Origin: Campylobacterales bacterium
GTDB taxonomy: Bacteria > Campylobacterota > Campylobacteria > Campylobacterales > Sulfurovaceae
NCBI GenBank assembly: GCA_014763895.1
Contig: JACXUM010000015.1
Location: 1 to 39,089 of the forward strand
DNA length: 39,089 nt
Direction of reading: 5' to 3'
Below, in pieces: positions 3,020-39,089 of the stretch (positions are counted from its first letter, which is position 1; each line of letters begins with the position of its first letter). The notes under the pieces were generated by a model. It saw nothing but the letters and a program-made list of their open reading frames with translations. It did no database searches and was not told the origin of the DNA. A program made the translations under genes and the position numbers.

Positions 3020-3700
3020 TTGTCAGAATTCTCCCGGTTTCAGATTACTTCAACACTTATCATTATCAATGTTGCAGCTTATCTGTTAACCGCTTTTCTA
3101 AGCGGTAATATCGAACAGATGGATATAAGAGCACTAGTAGGGGTCGGTGCATTGTTCGGTCCTGCTGTTCTGATCGAGGGGCAATGGTGGCGTCTGGTCA
3201 GTGCGATGTTTCTGCATGGAGGAATCACCCATCTGTTGATGAACATGGTCTCTTTATATGTCGTAGGAAGAGGTGTCGAGCTCTACTTCAAAACTTCCTC
3301 GTATCTGATCATTTACTTTTTTTCCGGCATTTTGGGTGCGATGGTCTCATTGATCGTTCATCCGCAAAGTGTAGGCGTGGGGGCTTCAGGAGCTATCTTT
3401 GGTCTTTTTGGTGCGCTTGCGGGATTTTTTTGGGCATACCGAGAGAGGATCGGGATGCAAAGCAAAGCCTTTATGAAGGATTTTGGTGTAATCATCGTGA
3501 TCAATGCCATTTTCGGGCTTGCCGTACCCGCAGTCGACATGAGTGCGCATATCGGCGGGTTGATCACCGGTTTGGTTGGCGGGTTCCTGCTTTCATCTTC
3601 CAAACGGTACGGGCTGATCATCTACACGGTTTTGTTTGGCTTGATGATGGTGATAGGGTACCGTTATTTTTATGAGATAGCCAGCATAACATTCCAATGA
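3020..3700 (+). CDS. Rhomboid family intramembrane serine protease
   Basis: Rhomboids cut transmembrane substrates within the membrane. This 226-residue protein has at least six hydrophobic segments. It carries the rhomboid signature HGGITHLLMNM (His66, His71, Asn75), the catalytic GASGA (Ser123) and SAHIGG (His177), so the Ser-His dyad is intact. The likely start is TTG at 3020; the ribosome site before it is weak, so the start is less certain. The last bases overlap the ATG of the downstream lipoprotein gene (ATGA), suggesting coupled expression. The substrate is unknown. Confidence 0.9.
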   Translation: MSEFSRFQITSTLIIINVAAYLLTAFLSGNIEQMDIRALVGVGALFGPAVLIEGQWWRLVSAMFLHGGITHLLMNMVSLYVVGRGVELYFKTSSYLIIYFFSGILGAMVSLIVHPQSVGVGASGAIFGLFGALAGFFWAYRERIGMQSKAFMKDFGVIIVINAIFGLAVPAVDMSAHIGGLITGLVGGFLLSSSKRYGLIIYTVLFGLMMVIGYRYFYEIASITFQ

Positions 3701-16004: not shown

Positions 16005-17072
16005 ATGACTTTGGAAGAACTCAGAGAGAAGATCGATACGATCGATGATACCTTGCTTCAATTGTTCAATGAACGGATGGAATATGTACATCAGGTGGGT
16101 GAGCTCAAGAACAATACCGGTGCGCCGATCTATCGTCCTGAACGTGAACAGGCCATTCTGAACCGTCTTAAGGCACAAAATAAGATTTCAGGCGGTAAAT
16201 TGACTGACGGTGCCATTGATGCGCTTTTTTTAGAGCTTTTTGCCGTTGCAAGGAATCTGGAGCTTCCCGAAGCAGTCGCCTTTCTTGGCCCGGAAGCAAG
16301 TTTTACCCATCAGGCAGCTGAGAGTAAGTTTGGTGCAATGAGTACCTATCTTCCCATGGGTTCGATCCAAGGGATTTTCAGGGAAGTTCAAAAGGGAACT
16401 ACAAAATTCGGCGTGATCCCGATCGAGAACAGTTCCAACGGTATTGTCAGTGACACGATCCACTGCCTAGATGAATATTCCTTAAAGATCGTAGCCGAGG
16501 TGGTAATCGATATCCATTTGGCTTTTGCTACAAAATGTGAGAATATCAAAGAGATCAAAAAGATCTATTCAAGGGATATCGCATTTGGACAATGCAGGGA
16601 TTTTTTAGAGGATCTTGGATTGGAAGAGGTAGAGCATATCCCGGTAGAATCTACTGCAAAAGCTGCAAAATTGGCTATGAAAGATGAGTATGCTGCAGCG
16701 ATCTGTCCTGCAGTGGCAGCAAAGATCAATAACCTGCCGATACTCTTTGACAATATTGAAGATAACAGCAACAACCGGACACGCTTTTTTATTATCAGTA
16801 ATTTTGAAAACCAGCCTTCAGGAAACGATAAAACATCAATGTTGGTCAAGCTTCTCAATAAACCGGGAAGCCTTGTAGAGTTTTTGAACGATTTTGAAGA
16901 AGCAAATATCAACCTCACTAAGATCAAATCGCATATCGTTGGTGGAGAGTCCATCTTTTTTATCGAGTTTAACGGGCATAAAGATGATGCACATATCAAA
17001 CCGATTTTAGAAAAACATCGCGATGTGATCAAAGTACTCGGTTCTTATGTGAAAGAAACGGAAGATATTTAA
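16005..17072 (+). CDS. pheA: Bifunctional chorismate mutase/prephenate dehydratase
   Basis: The P-protein converts chorismate to prephenate and then phenylpyruvate for phenylalanine. Three parts are visible: an AroQ-type mutase (about 1-90, [20 protein letters not shown]), a prephenate dehydratase (about 92-270, [18 protein letters not shown] and [14 protein letters not shown]), and an ACT domain (about 280-350). In the ACT domain the usual GALV and ESRP motifs that bind phenylalanine read GSLV and KSHI, so feedback inhibition may be altered. GAAGGAGCAGAG supports ATG 16005; the frame is also open from a TTG at 15972. Confidence 0.93.
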
Positions 17073-32713: not shown

Positions 32714-32744
32714 AATCGTTAAAAATGGACCAAAGGGAATGGGA

Positions 32745-35720
32745 ATGATGTATCAAAGTAATATTTACGAATACCTTGAAACACTTCAAGAGAACAAATT
32801 GCTTATCTGCAAAGACGACAAAGAAGCTCAGCAGATAAGGGATGTTGCCTTTTTGCTTGGCTTTGAATCTTTTGTGCTTCCTGATCTAAGAGTACAGAGA
32901 GGCGAAGATCTTCGATCTTACAGTGAAGAGATACAATCACTTCTGGTACAACTTGCCTATTATCACAGAAGCCAAACAAAAAAGGTGCTGATCTCCCCGC
33001 TTCGAACCCTTTTGGTACCTTTCCCTAAACCCGAATGTTTCGGTAGTGAGATGATAGCCTTCGGTGATAAGCTGGATCTGAATGCTTTTAAAGAGAAGCT
33101 CTACCGGTGGGGATATCATTTTGTGGATATTGCTTCAAGCAAAGGGGAGGTTTCATTCCGTGGGGATATCATCGATATCTACCCTATCAATGCCGATCAT
33201 CCCTACCGTATCTCACTTTTTGATGATGAGGTCGAAGCGATCCATCCCTATGATGAAGGGAGCCAAAAGAGGCTGAATGAAGAATTGGAAGCCATAGAGA
33301 TACTTCCTGCATTTCTTGCTTTGGACGAAACACAGTATGAAGCGCTGCAAAACAGGGTTGAACACAGCCGTTACGATACCTTTATCAAAGATATTGATGC
33401 GTTGGGGCTTTGGCAGCTGGATACTTTGGCCAAAAGTGCTCTGGAGCAGTTTTCGGGGGTATTTACAGGTGATCTGCAGGAAGAGATCAAAGAGATCTAT
33501 GAATTGAATGAACCGCTGATTACACGTGAATCCTTTTCTCTGCCGGTCATTGATCAGGCAAAGCGCTACCGTGATCTTGAAGTTGCCGATGCAAATAAAC
33601 TGCTTAGTGCCCATAAAGATAAGCAGATCATAGTGATCGCCAAAAACGAGAGTATCGTACGTGGTTCACAGCTGGAGAGTTTTGATACTATTACTTTTGT
33701 TTACCAGGATGGTATCGTCAATCTTTTAGGACCGGATAAACTGATCCTTTCTTTGAACAAGCCGCTCAAGCGTAAGCGTGTCAAAAAGCCGACCCTCATC
33801 CTTGATGAGCTCAAACAGGGTGATTATGTCGTACACGAAAACCATGGGGTGGGGATATTTAAAGGGATTGAAAAAAGGGAGGTACTGGGAGCGACAAGCG
33901 AATTTGTCGTGATGGTCTATCAGAATGAGGATACCCTGCTTATCCCGGTATCCAGCTTGGAAGTGATCGACCGTTATGTGGCTGAAGGCGGTGCGCTTCC
34001 GGCACTGGATAAACTGGGGAAAGCCAGCTTTAGAAACCTCAAAAGCAAAGTTCGTGAGAAGCTCTTTGCCATTGCTTCTGCGATCATCAACCTTTCAGCC
34101 CAGCGTCACCTCAAAAAAGGGATCGTTCTTCAAACGGACATGGAAGAACAAGCCGTTTTCATGGCTAAGGCAGGATTTATCCATACCGAAGACCAGGAGC
34201 GTGCGATCCATGAAATGCTCTTGGACATGGCGAGCGGCCGTATGATGGATAGGCTGCTCAGTGCGGATGTGGGGTTTGGCAAAACAGAGGTAGCGATGAA
34301 CGGAATGTTCGCAGCAGTCAAGAACGGATATCAGGCGATGATGATTGCGCCTACTACACTGCTAAGCTCGCAGCATTACAAAAGTCTCAAAACCCGCTTT
34401 GAAGAGTTTGGTATAAAGGTCGCCAGACTGGATAGATTTACTTCGACCAAAGAAAAGAGTACGATCCTAAAAGGCATTACCGAAGGTACCATCGATGTTG
34501 TGGTAGGAACCCATGCATTGCTTAAAGCCAGGTTCAAGAACCTGGCGCTTGTCGTCATCGATGAAGAGCATAAGTTCGGGGTGAAACAAAAAGAGGCGCT
34601 TAAAGAGATCGCTATCGATGTACACCTGCTCAGTATGAGTGCTACGCCGATCCCAAGAAGCCTTAACCTGGCGCTTTCCCAGATCAAAAGTTTTTCTGAG
34701 ATACTCACGCCGCCTATGGAACGTAAAGGGGTACGTACTTTTGTCAAAAGCTATGATGAGAAGATCATTAAAGAGGCGATCAGCAGAGAAATGCGTCGCG
34801 GCGGACAGATCTTTTATGTTTTCAACTCCATCGCAGGCATCGAAGAGAAGAAAAAAGAGCTGCTGGAGATCCTGCCTAAACTTCGTATCGCAGTGCTTCA
34901 TTCAAAGGTTTCGCCAACGGAAACTGAAGATGAGATGATGAAGTTCGAAGCGGGTGAGTATGATGTGCTTCTTTCTACTTCCATCGTCGAATCGGGTATC
35001 CATATGCCGCATGCCAATACGATGATCGTAGACGGCGCTGACAGTTTCGGGATCGCTGATCTTCATCAGCTGCGCGGGCGCGTCGGGCGTGGAACCAAAG
35101 AGGGATATTGCTATTTTATGGTTACGGATAAAGACCGGCTTACCGACAATGCCAAACGAAGGCTGCTGGCGCTTGAGTCCCATTCCGATCTTGGCAGCGG
35201 TGCAGTTTTGGCATTCCATGATCTTGAGATCAGGGGCGGGGGTAACATTATCGGAGAAGCACAGAGTGGACATATCAAGCAGATAGGCTATTCACTCTAT
35301 CTAAGGATGCTTGAAGATGCGATTCGCCAGCTCAGCGGGGAACACAAAGAAGCCGAGCAGCATGTGGATATGAAACTCTCTGTCAACGCCTATCTCAACG
35401 AAGACCTTATCGGCGAGGACAGGCTGCGTCTGGAACTCTACCGTCGTCTGTCGCTTTGCGAAAGTGCGGGGGAAGTCTATGAGATCGAAGAAGAGATCGC
35501 AGACCGATTTGGCAAGCTCGATACGATTACCAGACAGTTCATCGATATCATGGTCATGAAAGTGCTTGCAAAAGATAAAGGTATCGCCAAAGTCTCCTCT
35601 TACGGAGAGAATGTCTTTATGGAATTTGTTGATGAGGGTAAAGAACGGGTGGTTCTGAAGTCGCCGAGCAAAGACGACGATGATATCATTGGAACGGCGA
35701 TGGGGTATCTTAAAAATTAA
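32745..35720 (+). CDS. mfd: Transcription-repair coupling factor
   Basis: Mfd removes RNA polymerase stalled at DNA damage and recruits UvrA. The 991-residue protein has an N-terminal UvrB-like part, a CarD-like polymerase-interaction domain (LKQGDYVVHENHGVGIFKGI), and a RecG-like motor with the Walker A LLSADVGFGKTEVA, the DEEH box VVIDEEHKFGVKQ and SATPIPRSLNLALS. DQLRGRVGRG-type motif VI (HQLRGRVGRG) and a C-terminal TRCF domain follow. It is shorter than E. coli Mfd (about 1150), mainly at the N-terminus. Three in-frame ATGs lie at 32739, 32745 and 32748; 32745 has the best spacing. Confidence 0.95.
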   Translation: MMYQSNIYEYLETLQENKLLICKDDKEAQQIRDVAFLLGFESFVLPDLRVQRGEDLRSYSEEIQSLLVQLAYYHRSQTKKVLISPLRTLLVPFPKPECFGSEMIAFGDKLDLNAFKEKLYRWGYHFVDIASSKGEVSFRGDIIDIYPINADHPYRISLFDDEVEAIHPYDEGSQKRLNEELEAIEILPAFLALDETQYEALQNRVEHSRYDTFIKDIDALGLWQLDTLAKSALEQFSGVFTGDLQEEIKEIYELNEPLITRESFSLPVIDQAKRYRDLEVADANKLLSAHKDKQIIVIAKNESIVRGSQLESFDTITFVYQDGIVNLLGPDKLILSLNKPLKRKRVKKPTLILDELKQGDYVVHENHGVGIFKGIEKREVLGATSEFVVMVYQNEDTLLIPVSSLEVIDRYVAEGGALPALDKLGKASFRNLKSKVREKLFAIASAIINLSAQRHLKKGIVLQTDMEEQAVFMAKAGFIHTEDQERAIHEMLLDMASGRMMDRLLSADVGFGKTEVAMNGMFAAVKNGYQAMMIAPTTLLSSQHYKSLKTRFEEFGIKVARLDRFTSTKEKSTILKGITEGTIDVVVGTHALLKARFKNLALVVIDEEHKFGVKQKEALKEIAIDVHLLSMSATPIPRSLNLALSQIKSFSEILTPPMERKGVRTFVKSYDEKIIKEAISREMRRGGQIFYVFNSIAGIEEKKKELLEILPKLRIAVLHSKVSPTETEDEMMKFEAGEYDVLLSTSIVESGIHMPHANTMIVDGADSFGIADLHQLRGRVGRGTKEGYCYFMVTDKDRLTDNAKRRLLALESHSDLGSGAVLAFHDLEIRGGGNIIGEAQSGHIKQIGYSLYLRMLEDAIRQLSGEHKEAEQHVDMKLSVNAYLNEDLIGEDRLRLELYRRLSLCESAGEVYEIEEEIADRFGKLDTITRQFIDIMVMKVLAKDKGIAKVSSYGENVFMEFVDEGKERVVLKSPSKDDDDIIGTAMGYLKN

Positions 35721-35866
35721 AAAAACTGTATTTAATTTATTATAATTAATTAATAAGTGAATATTATAAACCTTGTTTAAGCAAAATTGATTTATCATCT
35801 TGCTCATTTTCTTTTTCATGTATGAGGAAGGAAAAGGGAAAGAAAACTTTCAAATTCATTTCACAC
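35721..35866 (+). other. Leader region upstream of the riboswitch
   Basis: This AT-rich gap holds TATAAT at 35741-35746 and TATAAA at 35765-35770, either of which could be the -10 for the riboswitch transcript. No ORF is supported in it. Confidence 0.35.
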
Positions 35867-35942
35867 AGTACATAAAGCCAAACTATCTGTGAGGATAGGA
35901 CGGAAAGCCACGGATCTTACACAAGACCGCCGGGTTGCTACT
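35867..35942 (+). ncRNA. Class I cyclic-di-GMP riboswitch aptamer (GEMM-I)
   Basis: The conserved core is visible in order: GCCAAAC, a stem CTATCT/GGATAG (35883-35888 and 35893-35898) closed by a GNRA-type GTGA tetraloop, GGACGGAAAGCCACGG, a second stem (GG.TCTT with AAGACC, loop ACAC), then GCCGGGTTGC. In GEMM-I RNAs the tetraloop docks on the second helix and the GGACG...AAGCC junction holds the ligand. AGTA (35867-35870) and TACT (35939-35942) can close the basal helix. It lies 36 bp upstream of the surface protein start. Confidence 0.88.
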
Positions 35943-35971
35943 TTTAACTTGTTAATTTGTAGTAACGGAGG
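35934..35971 (+). promoter_or_regulatory. Expression platform hairpin and ribosome site
   Basis: GTTGCTAC (35934-35941) can pair with GTAGTAAC (35959-35966), eight pairs with one G-U, ending directly before the GGAGG ribosome site (35967-35971). The left arm includes the aptamer's 3' bases, so aptamer and hairpin exclude each other. No T-run follows, which favours control of translation. Direction of the switch is inference. Confidence 0.5.
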
Positions 35972-35978
35972 ATTTTAG

Positions 35979-38900
35979 ATGGGGTTTGTTATTCGATGGT
36001 TAAGGGCATTTGCTCTTTTTAGTTTTTTAAGTTTTACTTTGAGCACGCAGGTGTTTGCTTTCAATGTGGCCCAGACAACATTTGTACCGTTGTCGGAACC
36101 TAATATCGATACTTCGATTAAAGCTATTCGTAGTACCGGTGCAAGCAATAGTGTTCAAACAATTATTTCAATTTCTGCAACAAGCAACAATACGATTATC
36201 GTTTATGATCAGTGGGAAGACGGATATGAGAGTAATCTCAGTAATCCCGTTCAAACATCTACAGGGGTTTGGGGTGATGGCAATACTGCCAATGGTACAG
36301 CCCCTGGAACGACTGATGACCTTATTCATGCAGGAGATACGATCACGCTTCGTAATGTGGTCAACACAGCATCTCCTGCTACCGTAGACTATGATGGCAG
36401 TGATAAGATAGGTTCCACCAAAGCCATATCCGTTACACAAGCAGGGTGGGATACAGGAATAGGTACGATTGTGGCAGGCGCAGTCAATGTGATCGATGCC
36501 GGTAACGGAGGCAAAAACTTTATTTTGCCTATTGGTGAGAATATCGGTAATCTTGCAAGCAATAATGCCACTCTCTTTGAATATACTTCAATCCATATCA
36601 TTGCTTATGCAGCAAATACAAATATTTCGATCGACAAGGATGGAGATGGTACAACAGACCAAACGTTGGTTCTGAGTGAAGGTCAAACTGCACGTGTAGA
36701 TTCCGGTGTGATCAATGCCGGTGCAACGGTAAGTTCTGATAAGCCGATTGGAGTTTATCTGATTGCAGGTGACATTGGTCAATCGGAAAATAGATGGTTC
36801 GGTTTGAATTCGCTTGATCAGTGGGCTACAAGCTATTATGCCCCTGTAGCCACGGTTGGTTCTGGTCACCCCTCCCATGTTTTTTTACGAAATCCAAATG
36901 CTTCGGCAATTACAGTTTACTATGACACCAAAAGCAGTATAGGAAACACGCTGACGGTTAATGCCAATGCCACCAATGCAATTCAGGTGCCTACATCAGC
37001 CGTACATTTCTATACCACAGATGGTTCCAAGTTTTATGCCGTCGGGACGATCGATTCAGGAGCTAGTAAGCATTTTTATTATGACTGGAGTTATTCTTTA
37101 GTGCCGGAAAGCTATTTAACTGATAGATTTATTGTTGCTTGGGGACCGGGTAGTAGCAATACGCCGCCTGCAGAAAACGGAAGTCCTGTATGGATCACCT
37201 CTATAGCGGATACGTGGCTTTACATAGACAACAGCAGTACAGTGAATGTTAGAGATTCCAGCGGTACTGCTGTGACCAGAGAAGTTGTCGATGCGGATAC
37301 TTCAAGATATAGGATTCATGCGTTGGAGTCCTACCGCCTTTATGATACTGACTATGACCAGAGCGGGTTGATAGCCTATACGCTTGACGGTACCTTGATT
37401 ACAGCAGCATGGGGAGAAGATCCCTCTACGGCAGGCTTAACTGATCCTTATCTGGATATGGGTACTACTGTACTGCCATACCCAGACTACGTCTTTAAAA
37501 AAGTTTCAGCTGAAGCCTCACCTGTTTTGTATGCAGGGGCAAGCGACGGAGATTTACTTTCTGAACTGAATGAAGAGATAGAATATACTATCACGATAGC
37601 CAACCGTTCTGTTGTAGAGCTTTATAATGTGAATATCAAAGATGCACTCAATCCGAGTGATAGTGCTACCTATGTTCCAAGCAGTGCAACTTTGACAGTG
37701 CTCGATGCAGATAATAATGTTAAAGTAAACATAACTGACCTGGATGGTGCAAGTGACACATTCCCCCTATCCGATCCTGGATATACTCTGACAGATGCCG
37801 ATTCTGCGACTGGAGGTGATCAGGGGCTTGCAAGAGGACATAAGATCGTTGTCAAGTATCGCATGAAGATTAGGGGTGATATCAATACGGCATTGGCTGA
37901 TGACAATTATGTGATCAATAACACTGCAACCATGGCAGGCTCACCGCCTGTAGGTGATCCGATCGATCCCAAAGATACAAACAACACTACGATCATCAGT
38001 GTGATAGATGCTGCAGATCAGAGTGTGGTAGAAAATGTATCGATTTTAGATGCTAATTTTACGATCAGCAATCTAACAGGTTTAACGCAGATAACCGTGA
38101 ACGGAACCGATGTATCTGCAGCCCAGCTCAATGCAAGTGCGACAACGCCTGTTTCTATTCCAACGCCTCAAGGGACCTTGACGATCAAAGGTTTTGACAG
38201 TACTACAGGTGTAGTGACGTATGATTATGATCCGGCAGGAACAAGCAAAGACCATTCAGGCGGTTCTGTCACAGATCCGATCACACTCGTTGCTTCGTAT
38301 TCTGCATCTGTAACCGTAGAAAATATGTTAAACATCACCATTTTGGATACGGCACCAGTTGCTAACAGTGATACGAACAGTATTGATGAAAATGACGCCA
38401 ATGCCTCTGGCAATGTGATAACAGGGCCTACTACCGCCGATACTTTGGTCGGAGACAGCGTTAGTATGACAGGAATCGGGGCCGGAACATTGCCAGGTGT
38501 CGACGGAAATGTCAGCAGCACGGTTGTGGGTACATACGGAAGTATCATTATGCAAAATAATGGGGACTATGTCTATCTGTTGGACAATGCAAATCCTTCG
38601 GTAAATGGATTGAAAAATGGTGAAATTCTTTCCGATATATTTACCTATACCATTACCGACAGCGACGGCAATACAAGTACGACACAGCTTGTTGTCACAA
38701 TCAACGGAGTTAACGATGCACCGGTTGCGATAGATGACAATGCAACAACAGACCTGGATACGCCTGTGACCATCCCGGTAAGAAATAATGATAGCGATAT
38801 TGAAGGTGATGATCTGAATGTTACTGTTGTTTCAAATGGTACTAACGGTACGGTTTCCATTGATCCGATAAGCGGTGATCCAGTGTATACACCAAATCCA

Positions 38901-39089
38901 GGATGGACCGGCATCGATACGTTCACTTATACCATTAGTGACGGAAATGGCACAGCAACTGCAACTGTCACCATAACAGTGACAAGCTATCCGATCGATG
39001 CGGTGGACGATGATTACAGCAGTACGCCGATCAACGGGGCTGATGGGAACAGCACGGCAAGCGTATTGAACAATGATACGCTTAACGGC
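35979..39089 (+). CDS. Large secreted surface protein with VCBS and cadherin-like repeats (partial, 3' end outside window)
   Basis: The frame is open from ATG 35979 to the window end, 1037 codons with no stop, so the gene continues. A Sec signal peptide is clear (cut after TQVFA, residue 27). An N-terminal region (about 30-390) resembles the IgGFc-binding N-terminal domain (VYDQWEDGYE, KPIGVYLIAGDIG). Residues about 500-670 look like a DUF11-type Ig fold (EIEYTITIANRSVVELYNVN). A VCBS-like domain spans about 770-915 (FTYTITDSDGNTSTTQLVVT, INGVNDAPVA). A cadherin-like/Big_9 repeat follows (FTYTISDGNGTATATVTITV) and another begins at the end. Asp/Asn-rich turns suggest calcium binding. GGAGG at seven bases supports the start, and the upstream c-di-GMP riboswitch implies a role in adhesion or biofilm. 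Confidence 0.9.
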   Translation, partial: MGFVIRWLRAFALFSFLSFTLSTQVFAFNVAQTTFVPLSEPNIDTSIKAIRSTGASNSVQTIISISATSNNTIIVYDQWEDGYESNLSNPVQTSTGVWGDGNTANGTAPGTTDDLIHAGDTITLRNVVNTASPATVDYDGSDKIGSTKAISVTQAGWDTGIGTIVAGAVNVIDAGNGGKNFILPIGENIGNLASNNATLFEYTSIHIIAYAANTNISIDKDGDGTTDQTLVLSEGQTARVDSGVINAGATVSSDKPIGVYLIAGDIGQSENRWFGLNSLDQWATSYYAPVATVGSGHPSHVFLRNPNASAITVYYDTKSSIGNTLTVNANATNAIQVPTSAVHFYTTDGSKFYAVGTIDSGASKHFYYDWSYSLVPESYLTDRFIVAWGPGSSNTPPAENGSPVWITSIADTWLYIDNSSTVNVRDSSGTAVTREVVDADTSRYRIHALESYRLYDTDYDQSGLIAYTLDGTLITAAWGEDPSTAGLTDPYLDMGTTVLPYPDYVFKKVSAEASPVLYAGASDGDLLSELNEEIEYTITIANRSVVELYNVNIKDALNPSDSATYVPSSATLTVLDADNNVKVNITDLDGASDTFPLSDPGYTLTDADSATGGDQGLARGHKIVVKYRMKIRGDINTALADDNYVINNTATMAGSPPVGDPIDPKDTNNTTIISVIDAADQSVVENVSILDANFTISNLTGLTQITVNGTDVSAAQLNASATTPVSIPTPQGTLTIKGFDSTTGVVTYDYDPAGTSKDHSGGSVTDPITLVASYSASVTVENMLNITILDTAPVANSDTNSIDENDANASGNVITGPTTADTLVGDSVSMTGIGAGTLPGVDGNVSSTVVGTYGSIIMQNNGDYVYLLDNANPSVNGLKNGEILSDIFTYTITDSDGNTSTTQLVVTINGVNDAPVAIDDNATTDLDTPVTIPVRNNDSDIEGDDLNVTVVSNGTNGTVSIDPISGDPVYTPNPGWTGIDTFTYTISDGNGTATATVTITVTSYPIDAVDDDYSSTPINGADGNSTASVLNNDTLNG

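Follow-up and report, generated by a model that had tools for sequence, protein, structure and literature searches.

Our analysis suggested, with good confidence, that a class I c-di-GMP riboswitch is situated in the 5' mRNA leader of a repeat-rich, probably Sec-exported adhesin, that the ligand would change the access of ribosomes to this mRNA, and that the body of the adhesin was probably gained from outside the genus. We favour this reading because of the RF01051 score, the covariation and the conserved contacts of the aptamer, six aptamer copies in a genome with GGDEF and EAL proteins, the enrichment of export signals behind aptamers, the recurrence of the signal peptide, the synteny of the slot, the terminator-free gap before the start codon, and the first rank (1 of 19) of the duplex between aptamer arm and ribosome-binding site. 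The window, that is, the whole stretch of DNA analysed here (39,089 nucleotides), is the complete contig C13 of a 47-contig, 1.77-Mb genome. Its right end carries the following features.

32739..35720, + strand: mfd (transcription-repair coupling factor), flanking the adhesin slot on its left (TIGR00580 equivalog, 1031 bits)
35717..35746, + strand: promoter-like TTAAAA-18-TATAAT at the mfd end (consensus match only; no excess over shuffled sequence, 1 found against a mean of 1.6)
35867..35942, + strand: c-di-GMP class I riboswitch aptamer (RF01051, 56.3 bits; covariation; contact residues by alignment)
35883..35898, + strand: P2 tetraloop hairpin with the GUGA loop at 35889-35892 (Infernal alignment; 6 of 6 pairs covary in relatives)
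35934..35966, + strand: possible alternative hairpin, GUUGCUAC (35934-35941) with GUAGUAAC (35959-35966), extending onto the Shine-Dalgarno sequence (minimum-energy fold)
35967..35971, + strand: Shine-Dalgarno sequence GGAGG, 7 nt ahead of the ATG (sequence)
35979..39089, + strand: ORF of a large surface adhesin, running off the contig end after 1037 aa (ORF and repeat-domain matches)
35979..36059, + strand: predicted signal peptide, residues 1-27 (hydrophobic N-terminus by eye; outside homology starts at residue 27-30; HMM search)
36060..38027, + strand: N-terminal body module, all-beta, covering residues 28-683 (without a Pfam match; AlphaFold2 model; outside relatives)
38349..39089, + strand: VCBS, Big_9 and cadherin-like repeats, truncated where the contig stops (domain matches)

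The aptamer and its ligand contacts

The initial annotation had described a GEMM-I core ahead of the adhesin gene, and its parts, GGACGGAAAGCCACGG, the stem with the GUGA tetraloop and GCCGGGTTGC, were all present in the window sequence. The Infernal comparison with the Rfam model that it had proposed gave a clear match: RF01051 (c-di-GMP-I) was found by cmscan at 35867-35942 over the full model (positions 1-87), above the cut-off of 35 bits and with an E-value of 1.5e-8. This was the sole RNA-family match across the whole window at gathering thresholds. A covariance model of the lineage, built from 27 sequences including the window aptamer itself, gave this aptamer 79.6 bits, and both scores are far above chance. 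The GUGA loop conforms to a GNRA tetraloop. Among the 27 lineage sequences, standard pairs made up 97% of the pair cells and two-sided changes were observed at 12 of the 20 aptamer pairs; the covariation score was reached in 0 of 500 shuffles and was also above all slid controls.

G20, A47 and C92 of Vc2 have been named as ligand contacts (PMC4744006). In our alignment the presumed equivalents are G35877, A35904 and C35938, and these positions are conserved in the aligned lineage sequences. The Vc2 sequence used for this mapping was misnumbered by one position towards its 3' end, and the C92 equivalent was therefore assigned by motif. GEMM-I variants that bind cAMP-GMP carry A at the G20 position. 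Variants of the GEMM-I class with altered specificity are known (PMC7266159), and the window aptamer might bind cAMP-GMP (3',3'-cGAMP) rather than c-di-GMP like some of them, but this is hardly credible, as the presumed G20 equivalent is G in the window and in all 27 aligned sequences. By sequence comparison, the element was thus confirmed as a genuine c-di-GMP class I riboswitch aptamer, and the RNA of 35867-35942 would be expected to bind c-di-GMP.

The leader and the sign of control

The ATG at 35979 lies 36 nt past the 3' end of the aptamer, exactly the spacing that had been annotated. From the promoter-like sequence at 35717-35746, transcription would begin about 110 nt before the aptamer. 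No terminator-like site was found in the 36-nt gap, so control would be expected at translation, through ribosome access, rather than at termination, and is probably translational. A terminator-like hairpin occurs farther downstream, within the signal-peptide codons (36002-36017), in the window and in one relative (G073, a complete genome), and is absent from five other leaders checked. A transcription terminator as the expression platform was therefore rejected, since the gap contains none and only two of the seven leaders carry this hairpin. The same hairpin is what favours termination at 36002-36017, or an aptamer that is a mere copy without effect on the adhesin, as the explanation. We consider both very unlikely, because the hairpin is missing from those five leaders, the aptamer has not decayed, and the pair of aptamer and signal peptide has been retained across species.

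A candidate link between the aptamer and the ribosome-binding site was found by folding. The alternative hairpin at 35934-35966 sequesters the presumed ligand contact C35938 in the minimum-energy fold, and the duplex between arm and ribosome-binding site (-14.8 kcal/mol, P about 0.02 against shuffles) was the one in which the window's own pairing ranked 1 of 19. When a ligand bonus was simulated, the probability of the alternative helix fell from 0.93 to 0.21, and the probability of an unpaired Shine-Dalgarno sequence rose from 0.29 to 0.45. A separate calculation of the cost of opening the Shine-Dalgarno sequence leaned the opposite way (1.9 kcal/mol free versus 2.8 kcal/mol bound). Across the lineage, a permutation test revealed no signal of pairing between arm and ribosome-binding site (11-67 sites, p 0.2-0.6), and two-state energies revealed no pattern of opening energy among 16 short-gap leaders. 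The lineage as a whole thus does not conserve the alternative helix. Reading the sign of regulation off the folding was given up, as the two calculations disagree and the lineage tests gave no signal.

In the mechanism we propose, the free state would pair the 3' arm of the aptamer, including C35938, with GUAGUAAC and the Shine-Dalgarno sequence, and c-di-GMP would disrupt this helix and so increase adhesin synthesis. An ON switch is moderately probable, if the riboswitch regulates at all, and we prefer it mainly because of two precedents. The Bc2 class I riboswitch of Bacillus thuringiensis cap raises expression in response to c-di-GMP (PMC4933901), and the Vc1 class I riboswitch of Vibrio cholerae gbpA raises synthesis according to a translational reporter (PMC4744006). 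The window resembles the former in that a class I aptamer stands in the 5' leader of an mRNA for a surface adhesion protein, and the latter in having one at the gene of an attachment factor. It differs from cap, which has an intrinsic terminator beside the ORF and encodes a cell-wall-anchored protein of a Gram-positive bacterium, by its terminator-free gap of 36 nt; gbpA differs in that its transcript begins 225-244 nt before the start codon, with a long gap to that codon, and in the protein it encodes.

An OFF switch, in which c-di-GMP binding would lower adhesin synthesis, is somewhat unlikely. It agrees with the lean of one opening-energy calculation for the window RNA and with Clostridioides difficile, which has 16 c-di-GMP riboswitches of classes I and II; most of the class I ones are OFF switches, and one of these controls a calcium-binding adhesin (PMC6200980). 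On the other hand, comparable attachment factors (those of cap and gbpA) are raised through class I switches, and an alternative helix that covers both a ligand contact and the Shine-Dalgarno sequence suits an ON switch better.

The adhesin, its body and its slot

The description of the gene product as a secreted giant repeat protein held in part. VCBS (TIGR01965, 47.4 bits), Big_9 and cadherin-like repeats and a signal-peptide-like start (by eye) were found, whereas "giant" exceeds the evidence within the window, where the gene is cut. The ORF is open-ended because the window is the whole of contig C13. Export is probably by Sec. The repeats begin only at about residue 770-850, and the first 650 mature residues form another module; no Pfam family matched this body (residues 28-683). 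Its AlphaFold2 model (630 residues, mean pLDDT 87) is mostly beta. A fold search gave middling matches, from which no function is deduced: Ig-like structures for model residues 475-630, with Z about 8, and TM1070 for model residues 252-351, with Z 10.9. The rest of the model was barely covered.

LapA/BapA-type adhesins are controlled through LapD/LapG proteolysis. The window protein resembles these type I secreted adhesins as a large repeat adhesin with a c-di-GMP link, and differs from them by its apparent N-terminal signal peptide and its different tail. The BapA/Bap/LapF model NF045619 scored 55 bits against a cut-off of 180, this being a C-terminal model applied to a protein whose C-terminus is cut. 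For the GlyGly-CTERM route, no rhombosortase above the cut-off was found in the genome. Its best match to the model, at window 3164-3577, reached 50.7 bits against 84 and is probably an ordinary rhomboid-family protein; matches below the cut-off also occurred in all 14 control genomes.

We infer that the adhesin of C13 runs on into contig C23. C23 opens with a 602-aa frame that probably belongs to the window gene. It contains CshA repeats (TIGR04225, 158 bits versus 60) and Big_9 repeats, and its C-terminus is a hydrophobic stretch that includes basic residues. Genes for an outer-membrane beta-barrel and then moxR come after this frame. Joining the two contigs by sequence overlap failed, since their ends share none, and the link is drawn because of synteny with relatives. 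In G073, mfd, regulator genes, the aptamer, a 2,086-aa adhesin, the barrel gene and moxR lie on one contig, and this adhesin ends in the same kind of tail as the 602-aa frame. The window adhesin thus probably continues on C23, where its tail would be hydrophobic and contain basic residues, ahead of the barrel gene.

The slot was surveyed with moxR as anchor in 35 other genomes, from the DNA upstream of moxR or from that surrounding the aptamer; many of these stretches stop at contig ends, so the genomes classed here are a subset of those read. mfd directly adjoins moxR in 12 genomes (74-345 bp between them, the slot being empty), a two-gene regulator pair alone fills the slot in two, and one (G015) has other cargo. 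The aptamer heads the slot in 8 of 8 cases in which the mfd side is visible and an adhesin or barrel gene is present, namely this genome and G001, G004, G012, G018, G034, G060 and G073, all seven of these relatives likewise having mfd as the left neighbour. The order mfd, aptamer, adhesin, barrel and moxR is unbroken on one contig in G073 and G012. In G029 the order from aptamer to moxR is the same, and mfd was not seen within the 3.5 kb read there. The pattern has exceptions: the G008 aptamer has a left neighbour other than mfd, and in the DNA read for G036 and G061 adhesin-like genes occur with no aptamer. By eye, the cargo of G034 and G060 resembles a type I secretion adhesin set.

An HMM of the signal peptide only, built from the window and G073, was searched against 61 genomes of the genus and gave eight matches below E 0.05, two of which are the model sequences themselves. 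In four of the other six (G004, G012, G008 and G001) an aptamer precedes the match by no more than about 150 nt, and in two (G036 and G030) it does not. Behind this common signal peptide there are at least four kinds of mature N-terminus, one of them common to G073, G004 and G001. The window body had no match at E 0.001 in the 60 other genomes of the genus. It is 50-57% identical to proteins of Burkholderiales, Methylobacter and Crenothrix (methanotrophs among them), and about 31-42% identical to mostly verrucomicrobial proteins. The closest outside matches start at residue 27-30, just where the signal peptide ends. What precedes the module in the eleven nearest loci read is an EELGHAID-type domain and not a signal peptide. 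The window body was probably acquired from a source beyond the genus and came to be fused downstream of a native riboswitch and signal peptide.

Vertical descent of a single orthologous locus, with a body that diverged past recognition and no exchange, would also explain the recurrence of riboswitch and signal peptide, and the mfd-moxR locus is indeed common to several cases. We regard it as unlikely: divergence in place fits the body poorly because its 50-57% identical relatives are in other phyla and none is in 60 genomes of the genus. Beyond the gain of this one body, we tentatively suggest a possible pattern for the lineage, in which riboswitch, Shine-Dalgarno sequence and signal peptide would form a fixed head, a conserved C-terminal tail and the barrel gene a fixed end, and the bodies between them would be exchanged, some coming from other phyla. 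Newly gained adhesins would thus come under resident c-di-GMP control at once. If true, this would be a simple route for placing a foreign adhesin under an existing second-messenger control.

A c-di-GMP-I match (46 bits) was also observed in Crenothrix sp. D3 (L047, 4429-4508), about 240 nt before the first start codon possible for a protein that contains the body module of the window adhesin. The base at its presumed G20 position looks non-consensus.

c-di-GMP riboswitches across the lineage

The source genome has six c-di-GMP-I aptamers. It also encodes 14 GGDEF and 8 EAL proteins, which makes c-di-GMP plausible as the ligand. No PilZ domain was matched in this genome, and no flagellin was found in it or in 40 sampled genomes of its genus, in agreement with the initial annotation, which saw no flagellar genes at their usual place in the window. 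Aptamers were found in 34 of 36 other genomes of the genus, in 85 of 150 genomes of the family, and in 2 of 23 genomes from other families of the order. Some relatives have 17-21 copies (the maximum of 21 in G027), which exceeds the number in C. difficile (PMC6200980). Export signals, scored by simple hydrophobicity and lipobox, were present behind 50 of 67 distinct aptamer sites and in 67 of 223 background ORFs (odds ratio 6.8), the 67 sites being a non-random set made up of the best-scoring sites and those of three well-covered genomes.

Riboswitch control of adhesins by c-di-GMP is already known from B. thuringiensis and C. difficile, and the window probably adds a further example. Like the C. 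difficile regulon (PMC6200980), the lineage has many riboswitches at surface proteins and adhesins; it differs in copy number (for class I, the one class searched here, 6 in this genome and at most 21 in a relative) and in the absence of flagellin from the genomes. Our literature search, which left most subscription journals uncovered and is thus weak evidence of novelty, found no account of c-di-GMP riboswitches in Campylobacterota. Less ordinary are the lineage-wide copy number and the common head of riboswitch and signal peptide before differing adhesins. If true, a lineage without flagellin, and with no PilZ in the source genome, would use RNA sensors of c-di-GMP to run a large part of its surface programme.

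Other aptamer loci were also noticed. Tandem c-di-GMP-I aptamers stand before one gene in several relatives (L145, L148, L150, L156, L162, L163 and L138). At L010 (G000:C38, aptamer 16148-16248), the aptamer comes ahead of an ABC transporter gene, behind which lie Transglut_core3, HPr-kinase-C-like and asparagine synthase genes, and the set has the look of a lasso-peptide-type operon; a first gene similar to this transporter gene also lies behind the aptamers of L020 and L154. The aptamer of L009 (G000:C45, 24469-24570) is ahead of an outer-membrane-barrel-like gene and the genes of an IgGFc_binding protein (PF17517, 238 bits) and a DUF4410 protein.
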